Shown here in pieces: positions 29,182 to 34,769 of a DNA stretch of 64,000 nt. The stretch spans positions 868,001-932,000 of the forward strand of contig NZ_JAUSVO010000001.1 of assembly GCF_030814715.1 (NCBI RefSeq), in the 5' to 3' direction. The number at the start of each line of letters is the position of its first letter. The first letter of the stretch is position 1. The stretch comes from Kaistia dalseonensis. Its GTDB lineage: Bacteria > Pseudomonadota > Alphaproteobacteria > Rhizobiales > Kaistiaceae. Below the pieces are notes generated by a model that made no database searches, was not told the origin of the DNA, and saw nothing but the letters and a program-made list of their open reading frames with translations. The position numbers were made by a program, and so were the translations under genes.

Positions 29182-29774
29182 GGTCTGAGACAGGCTTTCG
29201 AAGAGGGGATGAGGCGGGTCGGGAATCTACCTTAGGGCCGAGATTACCAGCCGGGTACCTTGGCGGCGCGATTTTGAATGATTTCTGCCGGGAGCCACTG
29301 CGATGACCGACGGCTGGAGCCGCCCGATGCGTGGAAATGTTCCAGCTCTGCGCATGGATGAGCAACACGAGGGATGGCTCATGGCGTGCCGTGAGGGGAA
29401 TGCCGGCACGTGCGCTGGAGGTCTATGCAACGCTTCGCCAGACGTGGCGGCAAGATGGCTGTGCCAGGCGTTGGGCCGGGGTGGCGCAATCGCATCACCT
29501 CGGACAGAGGTCAGGGGTCGGAATGGACGGCCATATTCGACGTCATTTCGGTCATTAGCAGTTCCTCCCGGAAATCCCGAAAGCGGCCATCAATCGCCAT
29601 GAGGCTGCATCGGCCTCTCACCGCTATTCGGCCGTTCTCGCGCACAGCTGGAGGTTTCCACGCTGGCGAGAACGAGAAAACTTCTATAGCGATTGTTAGT
29701 TGGTGATGGAGAATTACGGGGATGGTGAGATACTTCGCTTATGCAGAGAGCATCCGGTCGGTGCTAGGTTAGAG
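29182..29774. other. Intergenic region, no gene seen, left edge of an A+T-richer island
   Basis: Nearly 600 bases between the dipeptidase start and the nuclease-STAND gene. Several overlapping frames of 70-100 codons exist in different phases but none shows family features; one starting at 29303 has a GGGAG-like site but odd composition. Base composition drops in G+C towards the right end. A nine-base inverted repeat lies at 29633-29674. Confidence 0.45.
29633..29674. promoter_or_regulatory. Inverted repeat upstream of the nuclease-STAND gene
   Basis: CGTTCTCGC at 29633-29641 and its reverse complement GCGAGAACG at 29666-29674 flank a 24-base spacer that itself holds the near-palindrome TGGAGGTTTCCA. 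It could be an operator or a hairpin in the leader of the next gene. Only the sequence symmetry is seen. Confidence 0.35.
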
Positions 29775-32084
29775 ATGACGTACAGCTTTGGTGCGCTCTC
29801 TCATCTTGACTTCGAAGATTTGTCACGGGATTTGATTGGCCGGGAGCTCAACATTCGCTTTGAGGCTTTCGTGTCAGGCCCGGACGGCGGGATAGATGGC
29901 AGGCACGCGCAAGGCACCGACAAGATCATCCTCCAAGCGAAGCACTATGTGGCGTCACGCTACTCTGATCTAAAACGTGCAATGAAAAAGGAAAGAGCAG
30001 CGATCGATCGTCTAGCGCCGACGCGCTATATACTCACCAGCTCTTGCGGATTGAGCCCAAAAAATAAGGCTGAGCTTGCGACCATTGTTGGCGCGTCACT
30101 CCAAAGCGAATCAGACATATTTGGACCAGGTGACCTCAATAGCTTGCTGCGCCGTCATCCGGAAGTGGCGAAGTCACACGTTAAGCTTTGGCTCACGCAA
30201 ACCGCGATGCTTGAGCGCGTGCTTAACGCCGCTGCCCATAGCTTCAATGACATTACTCGCGAGGAGATAGTTGAGAAGCTCAAGGTCTACGCTCCAAACC
30301 CCAGCTTCGATGCCGCGCGGGGTGTATTGGAAAGCCAGCACGTGGTCATCATTTCTGGGCCTCCCGGCGTCGGTAAAACGACGCTGGCTGAAATGCTGGG
30401 CTATGCGTATCTCGCCGAGGATTGGGAACTCGTTGCTATTCGCAGCCTTGACGATGGCTTGGCGGCGATCTCGGACAGCCGGCGACAGCTCTTCTACTTC
30501 GATGATTTTCTTGGCCGAGTTGCGCTCGACAAGAACGCCTTGGCCAAGATGGATTCCGACCTCGCTCGGTTTATCACGCGCGTTCGGAAGTCAAAAAATG
30601 CCCGCTTCATCCTCACGACTCGAGCTCCAATTTTCGAGGAAGCAAAGCGGCATTCCGAACACCTTGCAGACCGGCGGCTAGACATCAGCAGATATTTACT
30701 CGATGTCGGCATTTACACACGCCGAATTAAGGCCCGCATCCTTTACAATCATCTCTCGACTACTGGTACACCGCGGTCACACGTCGTTTCGCTCATCGAT
30801 AGCGGTCTGATCACAGAAATAGTCGATCACAAGAACTATTCGCCTCGGCTCATCGCACAGATGACCGAAGGAAGCCGCATATCAGACCTAGAGCCTGCCG
30901 CGTATCCAACGGCCTTTATCGCCGCGCTAGACGACCCTTCCCAACTCTGGGATATTCCGTTCCGCAAACATATCCCTCGGACCTGCCAGCACCTTCTACT
31001 GACCCTGTTCTTCTGCGGGGAATTCTGGGTTCCAATTGATACCCTAAGTGTTAACTATGCTGCGTATCACGCTGCGCTGAATGCTCATTTCGGCACAGCG
31101 CATGACCCCAAAGATTTCGAGGAATCTCTCCGGATACTTGAGGGCGGCTTTGTGAAGATTTCTGGCAGAAGCGTGATGTTTGTAAACCCTTCCGTGCGGG
31201 ATTATCTTCTGAACTACCTCGACGATCATATTCTGCTGAATCTTGCGGCCAAGGCGTCACTTCGAACAGACTGGACGCAAGCAGTTTGGGAGCACGCGAA
31301 GCGCATAAGCCCTCCATGGACCGTGCCCGCCCCGCCCGAACGCGCCGAATTGGCTCGGAGCTTTCTGCCGGTCGCCGAAACATTCTTGACGCAGCCCGTT
31401 CGGGTCAGAATCAAGACAGAACATGGCGTTTACCTCCATCCGCATGGACTGTCGAACGTCGACCGGGCGGAACTGCTGATAGATTGGTGGTTCGCCAGCG
31501 GCGAAGAGCGATTTTTGGCGCTCCTTCACAGCCTCCTATCGAACCCGATCGACGGATGGGATCCTTGGCGTGACGGAGAAGACCTTATTGCCTTGATCGG
31601 GAAATTTCGTGGACCGGGATATTTCGACGAACTGCCTTCTCGTGAAGAACTGGCGAACATTCTCGTGACAGGCGCCATCGCGATGATCGAGAGCCATTCG
31701 CTCAACTCGGAAGACCTCACCAAGCTGTCTGATGCCTACGAGGAATGGCCAACGGCGGTGACCGACGAGATGAATACGACCCTTGATGCAGCGATAATAA
31801 GGCAATTTGACGAGCTGGACGAAACGCTACGCGGCATGGAATCTGAATCGACCGTGGATGAGTACCTGGAAATGCTGGACAAGCTTGGTGCACGCGCGGG
31901 GATACCAAAGTATGTCCTCTCCAGCGCCGCCGAGGCTGCTGAAGAACGTAAGGCGGTGATAGAGCGTAGGAGCGTTGTTTCTCATTCTCCATCGCTGAAA
32001 AATGTCGGTGCCCAAGCAAACGATGACTTTGACGATTCCGCTCTCAGGAACCTATTTGCACCACTTCGTGAAGGCCGATTCTAG
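29775..32084 (+). CDS. Mrr-type restriction endonuclease fused to STAND NTPase (nSTAND3-like), candidate antiviral defence protein
   Basis: A 769-residue protein. The N-terminal part is a PD-(D/E)XK nuclease of the Mrr/restriction-endonuclease-like type: FSFG-like start, FEDL, GPDGGIDG (Asp41) and ILQAKHY (Gln54, Lys56). After a helical linker comes a NTPase with Walker A GPPGVGKT (195-202), Walker B QLFYFDDFLG (238-247) and a sensor RFILTTR (277-283), the signature of nSTAND3. The rest is helical with no named repeat. Nuclease-STAND fusions are Avs-like sensors that cut DNA upon recognising a phage protein. Codons are markedly richer in A/T than the neighbours, suggesting transfer. Start uncertain: ATG 29706 or TTG 29700 are alternatives; 29775 fits homologues best. 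Confidence 0.85.
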   Translation: MTYSFGALSHLDFEDLSRDLIGRELNIRFEAFVSGPDGGIDGRHAQGTDKIILQAKHYVASRYSDLKRAMKKERAAIDRLAPTRYILTSSCGLSPKNKAELATIVGASLQSESDIFGPGDLNSLLRRHPEVAKSHVKLWLTQTAMLERVLNAAAHSFNDITREEIVEKLKVYAPNPSFDAARGVLESQHVVIISGPPGVGKTTLAEMLGYAYLAEDWELVAIRSLDDGLAAISDSRRQLFYFDDFLGRVALDKNALAKMDSDLARFITRVRKSKNARFILTTRAPIFEEAKRHSEHLADRRLDISRYLLDVGIYTRRIKARILYNHLSTTGTPRSHVVSLIDSGLITEIVDHKNYSPRLIAQMTEGSRISDLEPAAYPTAFIAALDDPSQLWDIPFRKHIPRTCQHLLLTLFFCGEFWVPIDTLSVNYAAYHAALNAHFGTAHDPKDFEESLRILEGGFVKISGRSVMFVNPSVRDYLLNYLDDHILLNLAAKASLRTDWTQAVWEHAKRISPPWTVPAPPERAELARSFLPVAETFLTQPVRVRIKTEHGVYLHPHGLSNVDRAELLIDWWFASGEERFLALLHSLLSNPIDGWDPWRDGEDLIALIGKFRGPGYFDELPSREELANILVTGAIAMIESHSLNSEDLTKLSDAYEEWPTAVTDEMNTTLDAAIIRQFDELDETLRGMESESTVDEYLEMLDKLGARAGIPKYVLSSAAEAAEERKAVIERRSVVSHSPSLKNVGAQANDDFDDSALRNLFAPLREGRF

Positions 32085-34665: not shown

Positions 34666-34769
34666 GATCACTTCATCGTTTCACTGAAACGATGAAGTGA
34701 TCGATCTATTTGTTTTGGCACTTTTCCTTCACGCGAACCGGTGCCCACCTCGCCCGGAAGCGCTCTGAG
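34666..34769 (+). repeat. Palindromic intergenic repeat element, copy 2
   Basis: Starts with a perfect palindrome: 18-base arms (34666-34683 and 34685-34702) around one base, beginning GATCACTTCATCG. Then follow ATCTATTTGTTTTGG, TCCTTCACGCGAACCGGTGCCC and CGGAAGCGCTCTGA. A diverged inverted copy lies at 9084-9185. It separates two B units. Confidence 0.8.

Follow-up and report, generated by a model that had tools for sequence, protein, structure and literature searches.

A candidate immune protein of Kaistia dalseonensis in which an nSTAND3 NTPase carries a nuclease module in common with short-Argonaute-associated TIR proteins

Can a lone gene encoding a nuclease joined to a STAND-type NTPase, set among ordinary bacterial genes, act as an immune system by itself? 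The question is raised by a gene on the forward strand, at 29775 to 32084 of a 64,000-nucleotide stretch of the Kaistia dalseonensis genome (contig NZ_JAUSVO010000001.1, positions 868,001 to 932,000; hereafter the window). A reading made beforehand from the sequence alone (the sequence-only reading) had proposed a single-gene defence candidate, and this proposal is upheld by the domain matches, by a match to the PADLOC candidate PDC-S73, by a patchy and non-syntenic spread, and by plasmid copies, with some copies standing beside defence genes. We consider it likely that the product is a STAND-type (NLR-like) protein combining immune sensor and effector in a single chain; its antiviral action, at each of the functional steps of sensing, assembly, cutting and protection, is what we infer. 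The parts of the gene are the following, residue conservation being counted over alignment A2 (30 rows of aligned relatives):

29775..32084 (+): whole gene, 769 residues, a nuclease–nSTAND3 protein whose core corresponds to PADLOC PDC-S73 (from the open reading frame, Pfam, PADLOC and alignment)
29775..30194 (+): PD-(D/E)XK (Mrr-like) nuclease module, residues 1-140, also found in TIR proteins of the type associated with short Argonautes
29877..29903 (+): catalytic motif G35-x-D37-x-G39-x-D41-G42-R43; G35, D37, G39 and D41 in 29/30 rows, the other row having a gap
29934..29945 (+): catalytic motif Q54-x-K56-H57; Q54 and K56 in 29/30 rows, the other row having a gap
30288..30758 (+): nSTAND3 NTPase domain, residues 172-328 (PF20720)
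30357..30380 (+): Walker A GPPGVGKT, residues 195-202; G195, G198, G200, K201 and T203 in 30/30 rows
30486..30515 (+): Walker B QLFYFDDFLG, residues 238-247; F240, F242, D243, D244, F245, L246 and G247 in 30/30 rows
30759..31214 (+): conserved extension after the NTPase, residues 329-480, with HxN[YF]xPR and NPS..D motifs; P357 and R358 in 30/30 rows, H352 and N354 in 28/30, N471, P472, S473 and D476 in 29/30
31215..31979 (+): weakly conserved C-terminal domain, proposed sensor, residues 481-735 (low identity; the PDC-S73 match ends at 490)
31980..32027 (+): poorly conserved linker, residues 736-751 (alignment)
32028..32069 (+): C-terminal tail FDDSALRNLFAPLR, residues 752-765, motif [ILV]xx[LMI]F; L760 in 28/30 and F761 in 29/30 rows

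The open reading frame (ORF) runs from an ATG at 29775 to a stop codon ending at 32084, as the sequence-only reading had it, and its start methionine is common to most homologues in alignment A1. Since most of these homologues begin at the ATG-encoded methionine, a TTG further upstream, at 29700, is an improbable start. The gene is also, as claimed, A+T-richer than its neighbours: its G+C content is 54.2%, and 59% at third codon positions (GC3), the corresponding values in seven genes beside it being 63-68% and 77-86%. The right-hand neighbour among the window ORFs is a dusA-like gene.

The nSTAND3 domain proposed from the sequence was recovered by the PF20720 search (E 1.7e-48, 164.7 bits against a curated cut-off of 27.2), Walker A and Walker B lie where they had been placed, and Protein Data Bank (PDB) profile searches returned P-loop matches. 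PDC-S73 (model PDLC05079), a defence candidate of PADLOC, matches residues 2-490 with 445 bits (profile positions 3-496 of 752), and the core of the window protein is already covered by this model. Near-complete matches are present in other genomes (G556, G646 and G783) and extend to model position 751 of 752 (3-751 in G556). Because the match stops at residue 490 here, leaving the C-terminal third outside it, and reaches 751 elsewhere, the window protein is, by these profile matches, a PDC-S73 member in its core and a variant in its C-terminal third. The name PDC-S73 was not found in the openly licensed literature, the accessible text of PMC11514479 mentioning PDC candidates other than PDC-S73 only. 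The region after the NTPase had been described as some 450 unassigned residues; this description holds for residues ~481-735, which are variable, and fails as a single block, as residues 329-480 contain the conserved N354, P357-R358 and N471-P472-S473, and the last 15-20 residues form a conserved tail.

The N-terminal module contains the motifs GPDGGIDG and ILQAKHY reported earlier, with the PD-(D/E)XK catalytic residues of the Mrr_cat type (D41, Q54 and K56). Mrr_cat (PF04471) scores over its cut-off, at 21.7-28.6 bits, in all four close relatives scanned (L105, L017, L030 and L038), and gives no match in the one distant relative scanned, L143. A PDB search with the module profile yielded three matches (E 0.18-0.91), by name not PD-(D/E)XK enzymes. 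In Victivallis vadensis (L046:7968-9863), the match begins at residue 131, in an ORF without the nuclease module that keeps the tail.

Over residues 1-140 the window protein has 54-61% identity with the N-termini of six aligned TIR proteins, which were chosen because they matched. The resemblance has a sharp edge near residue 140: in two pairs followed along their length, identity drops from 50-70% before this point to 15-30% after it. The pNGR234a TIR protein is identified by PADLOC as Aga_TIR-PNTD1-PNTD2 (1129 bits), the gene following it encodes a class I short prokaryotic Argonaute (pAgo; 724 bits), and a match to the PDC-S73 model extends over residues 1-156 of this TIR protein. At a Roseibium TIR locus the next gene is related to the pNGR234a pAgo, and at two more TIR loci it is of similar size (size alone compared). 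The window module is nearer to the TIR modules than to those of the STAND relatives L088, L089 and L092 (41-46%). In the module tree the TIR rows fall among type-A STAND rows, with support of 93/88 for the joint group and 80/98 for a wider one, values that are moderate and below the program's mark for strong branches. Only 2% of 200 bootstrap trees unite the TIR proteins in a single group, and the L087 module lies outside the joint group, though its core lies inside clade A. The simplest reading suggests that the module was exchanged, in one direction or the other, between STAND and Argonaute systems.

The window protein itself differs from the REase-TIR-APAZ arrangement, which has TIR and APAZ in one protein and an adjacent pAgo: the Aga models match its residues 1-166 only, and the next gene is dusA-like, not a pAgo. 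REase-TIR-APAZ proteins are described as double-effector partners of short Argonautes in the accessible text of PMC10810196, and Mrr-family nucleases beside Argonautes have been known since at least PMC6299218, as far as the available part of that paper goes. No description of the REase of TIR-APAZ proteins as a module of nSTAND3 proteins was found in the openly licensed literature. The new points are an effector module common to a short-Argonaute partner protein, and a conserved tail.

The window protein ends in DDFDDSALRNLFAPLREGRF, and past residue 478 the list of columns kept in 90% or more of the A2 rows holds only L760 and F761. Counted as [ILVM]xx[LMI]F among the final 18 residues, the tail motif is found in 51 of 57 relatives, at 1 to 10 residues from the protein end, across C-terminal types that cannot be aligned, including all three large ones. 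The carriers belong to Pseudomonadota, Bacteroidota, Campylobacterota, Gemmatimonadota and Chlorobiota, with one Streptomyces plasmid. As background, the motif ends 6 of 485 neighbouring ORFs (mechanical calls, some of which may be no genes) and 1.7% of shuffled tails, and it is absent from five larger proteins that match the family weakly or in part (L170-L174, 1298-1439 residues). The total combines sets of 45/49 (at first 38/41), 3/5 and 3/3. The first includes partial copies with a natural C-terminus (L003, L036, L044, L046 and L093); the second is eight loci minus L149 (same place as L135), L150 (the tail of L029) and L156 (of the distant family); the third includes L157, the second piece of a broken copy. 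Left out were the near copies L014, L084 and L094 and the incomplete or broken L016, L019, L032, L043, L045 and L141. Among the six misses, L018, L145, L154 and L155 are without the motif, and L035 and L041, two Flavobacteriaceae members, end in DDDLPF and DEDELPF. Among the distant PDC-S73-like relatives, all seven that were read (L005, L006, L007, L112, L136, L137 and L143) have F[DE]D[VI]D as their end; L142, a HEAT-repeat protein of 1404 residues, ends in FAEMFGME, near the motif and no match, and L144 is without it. In L041 the last ~70 residues repeat NLFDDY-like units (FHNLFDDY, FNNLFDDY) before DEDELPF, as if a motif had been multiplied.

The [ILV]xDLF tail presumably resembles a sliding-clamp-binding peptide, and the DDLPF/DELPF ends of the two Flavobacteriaceae members presumably echo the tip of the single-stranded DNA-binding protein (SSB). 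By this likeness, the tail might be a docking peptide that parks an immune nuclease on the replication machinery; in a related version, an acidic aromatic tail would plug the nuclease in cis until activation. Taken jointly, we hold these two ideas to be doubtful. If docking were true, the sensor would watch replisome proteins or the phage replacements of them; its C-terminal domain would follow changes in the phage, and the docking peptide would persist from one phylum to the next. The tail lends itself to mutagenesis at little cost: a short peptide that stays the same where 250 residues of the proposed sensor vary must have a function required by most of the family.

The C-terminal domain is the least conserved part of the protein, the mean identities of module, core and C-terminal domain being 57/58/30% in eight clade-A members, 54/46/25% in seven type-B members and 49/50/24% in six type-C members. 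From this low conservation we infer its putative sensor role. No relation between the A, B and C domains was detected by profile comparison (hhalign probabilities 0.1-1.6%); by the same measure, type C relates to set D (96%) and L023 (88%), and type A weakly to L018 (48%). It was BLAST linkage that placed the relatives L088, L089 and L092 in type A; their C-termini have no clear similarity to the domain of the window protein, showing little or nothing above shuffles when compared with it (z -0.3, 3.4 and 0.9). In the core tree a single clade corresponds to each of the types A, B and C, and free shuffling of sensors among cores was rejected, as C-terminal types track core clades. Because each type forms one core clade, fast divergence and an old replacement at the clade base would both give this pattern. 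No Pfam repeat was found in the domain (~255 residues) among the best 25 of 33 families, and the PDB profile search gave one weak match there, to a designed helical repeat protein (profile positions 527-705, E 0.0013).

STAND proteins are molecular switches that work by nucleotide-dependent assembly. In the mechanism that we propose, the protein would rest in a closed form until its C-terminal domain (~481-735) recognises a phage or mobile-element product; nSTAND3 would then exchange nucleotide and oligomerise, gathering the N-terminal D-QxK nuclease modules, which would be active only once assembled and would degrade DNA, so that infection is stopped or the cell killed. The conserved tail would be either an intramolecular latch or a docking peptide. 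Activation by nSTAND3 assembly is proposed because the D-QxK nuclease of SPARDA needs tetramerisation and the window protein has the same D-QxK residues: in the accessible text of PMC12205087, no activity is detectable for the SPARDA PD-(D/E)XK domain (catalytic D41/Q60/K62) by itself, and tetramerisation turns it on. The use of one module in STAND and Argonaute scaffolds fits an effector that may need only to be brought together.

We then considered where the family occurs. A contig search found 36 relatives, from Pseudomonadota, Bacteroidota, Campylobacterota, Gemmatimonadota, Patescibacteria and others. At least a part of the protein is matched in 50 plasmid records, 29 of them predicted conjugative, a count that includes distant relatives and TIR proteins having the nuclease module alone in common; in nine records a match at a single place spans 80% or more of the protein. 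This abundance favours a different emphasis, in which the gene is mainly an anti-plasmid or inter-element weapon, carried by plasmids to exclude rival plasmids or phages, and so does the report that SPARDA, likewise a user of a D-QxK nuclease, defends against plasmids too (accessible text of PMC12205087). The window copy, however, lies in a 1.3-Mb contig among ordinary genes, and we consider a mainly anti-plasmid role unlikely; such a role would be compatible with an antiphage one. Plasmid searches with the two window flanks found no relatives.

A phage home for the gene was rejected, the viral-contig scan confirming no relative. Two records filed as phage do match. One, MT836015.1 (L094), shares its neighbours (IS21 genes, an SMC-like gene and the relative) with the Pseudomonas plasmid pD4A-46 and is therefore probably misfiled plasmid DNA; the other, MT836619.1, has 26% identity. 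In Patescibacteria UBA6164 (L043:8001-12891), whose genome may decode TGA as glycine, the copy has a core open over 519 residues under code 25, with 17 recoded steps, and an 822-residue ORF resembling a DNA methylase then follows; this copy suggests a transfer into a recoded lineage.

Gene neighbourhoods were compared at 52 loci, which include two TIR loci and three (L002-L004) with only ~1.5 kb of flank. No neighbour family occurs in more than three of them, save in four near-identical Pseudomonas-type stretches (L013, L014, L084 and L094), so that a conserved operon partner was rejected and the gene appears to work alone. Among the neighbours at single loci are PDC-S06 (L100), AbiJ_NTD4 (L101), a cytosine methylase (L012), Ppl (L083) and BilD (L086), and by annotation there are also HipA, Fic, AbiEii, integrases and insertion sequence (IS) elements. 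Among 121 neighbour proteins of 34 contig loci, PADLOC (E<=1e-20) found type II/III methylases, Old, GajA, AriA and mad3, the last four of which may be matches to the same proteins, and Pfam found three integrases and two IS66 transposases. Conserved synteny in non-defence contexts, which the sequence-only reading had named as evidence against itself, was looked for: no partner is kept in the 52 loci, and many neighbours are ordinary genes.

These neighbourhoods also bear on the idea of an NTP-dependent, type IV-like restriction enzyme, whose C-terminus would read modified or foreign DNA while the P-loop drives a McrBC/Mrr-like cut, the trigger being DNA and not a phage protein. An Mrr-like catalytic domain would suit such an enzyme, many plasmid copies are annotated "restriction endonuclease", and DNA methylases stand near some copies (L012, L043 and A3 members). 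Yet no methylase is kept beside the gene in the 52 loci, the NTPase is nSTAND3 and not a McrB-type translocase, going by what is known of these classes, and the low C-terminal conservation would suit changing proteins better than DNA marks. We regard the restriction enzyme as improbable.

Two further neighbourhoods are recorded for their own sake. In three plasmid copies, a roughly 900-residue AAA/SMC-like ATPase then follows the relative (L083:12334-15138, L087:9240-11942 and L093:9755-12457) and is not kept in other loci; it is annotated TrlF, is Ppl-like in L083, and the L087 and L093 proteins are mutually related. On plasmid pPAES01 of Prosthecochloris aestuarii (L139:947-11565), a relative lies near a diversity-generating retroelement (avd, reverse transcriptase and two formylglycine-generating-enzyme-like proteins) and stands before an FxSxx-COOH TPR gene.

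The genome of the window holds one copy of the gene, and 10 of 199 related genomes (own included) match at E<=0.001, only G000, G005, G020 and G037 doing so below 1e-80. PDC-S73 is found in 5 of 397 genomes of the order (own included) at E<=1e-80, one of them (G020) split. At E<=0.001 it matches 68/397, but 7 of 14 control genomes match at the same threshold too, so these weak matches are mostly P-loop matches. In the phylum, it is found in 9 of 398 genomes (own included) at E<=1e-90 and in 13 at E<=1e-15, with none of the 14 control genomes. A single congener out of 13 has a relative (G005, 53% identity), on a contig other than that of its dusA, and the proteins flanking this copy are not generally conserved, matching in 4/14 and 5/14 genus genomes (G005 included). 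The transporter gene to the right of dusA is kept in all 13 congeners; to the left of dusA, over the 1.0-1.5 kb seen, neither this gene nor the peptidase gene is found (0/13), and further left a different gene set stands in four of the five congeners read, G005 differing again. The left side of dusA is, on this comparison, a variable place, because other genes stand there in congeners. In G020, of the same family (L101, G020:C1:496226-501009), the copy is in two pieces with ~2.5 kb and two ORFs between them; the second piece has an internal TGA, and the AbiJ_NTD4 gene adjoins. A Neorhizobium plasmid copy is annotated as two genes. An ordinary housekeeping gene of DNA repair or stress, as the ordinary genes on both sides in the window might suggest, is highly improbable given 12/13 congeners without a match, no conserved place, the low G+C, the split G020 copy and the Neorhizobium copy annotated as two genes.

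At the locus itself, promoter and terminator scans around the gene gave nothing above chance, and the repeat search found no obvious attachment repeats, mostly short two-copy matches. A perfect inverted repeat of 16 nucleotides with a 1-nucleotide centre lies at 34668-34700 of the window, intergenic, after a transporter gene.

Several points weigh against the immune sensor-effector that we prefer. The Mrr nuclease of the sequence-only reading stands on the catalytic residues and on the scores of the close relatives, and falls short in the window protein, where Mrr_cat reaches 18.4 bits over residues 8-60, under the curated cut-off of 21. Many of the 121 neighbours are metabolic by Pfam, and each PADLOC family is found in at most 2/121 of them (among the best 25 of 112 families, counted without a control set). 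Sensor swapping is not shown, the C-terminal types following the core clades. Finally, the openly licensed literature yielded no experiment on any family member and no paper on a nuclease–nSTAND3 protein.

How does the protein compare with known systems? The likeness to Avs proteins drawn in the sequence-only reading survives as an analogy, nSTAND3 being the STAND domain of Avs5; in the window protein nuclease and nSTAND3 stand in that order, before a C-terminus that is a putative sensor. Membership by sequence was rejected, no Avs model being among the 14 PADLOC matches at E<=1. Avs2-Avs4 are STAND nucleases with an N-terminal nuclease, a STAND domain and a C-terminal sensor, the plan proposed for the window protein, which is presumably much shorter than they are and which the Avs models do not match. 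Avs5 (AVAST type 5) is described in the accessible text of PMC12931631 as a Sir2-nSTAND3-repeat protein defending against jumbo phages; it has the same Pfam STAND domain and a tripartite plan with a variable C-terminal part. Its effector is Sir2, however, whereas the window protein has a PD-(D/E)XK nuclease, no Sir2 family among the best 25 of its 33 Pfam families, and a C-terminal domain without a Pfam repeat among the families listed. The DREN nuclease of SPARDA has D-QxK residues like D41, Q54 and K56 of the window protein and needs assembly, going by the available part of PMC12205087; the two were compared by profile search alone, and no DREN entry was among the PDB matches of the module profile at E<=1. 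PDC-S73 is alike in its core and in the order of nuclease and nSTAND3, the C-terminal third of the window protein making the difference. In REase-TIR-APAZ systems TIR is the fusion partner of the module, which acts together with a short pAgo; in the window protein the partner is nSTAND3. STAND sensors and short Argonautes, usually treated apart, would thereby be tied through one exchangeable nuclease module, and this sharing makes the notion of effector modules activated by forced assembly directly testable by domain swaps in laboratory strains.

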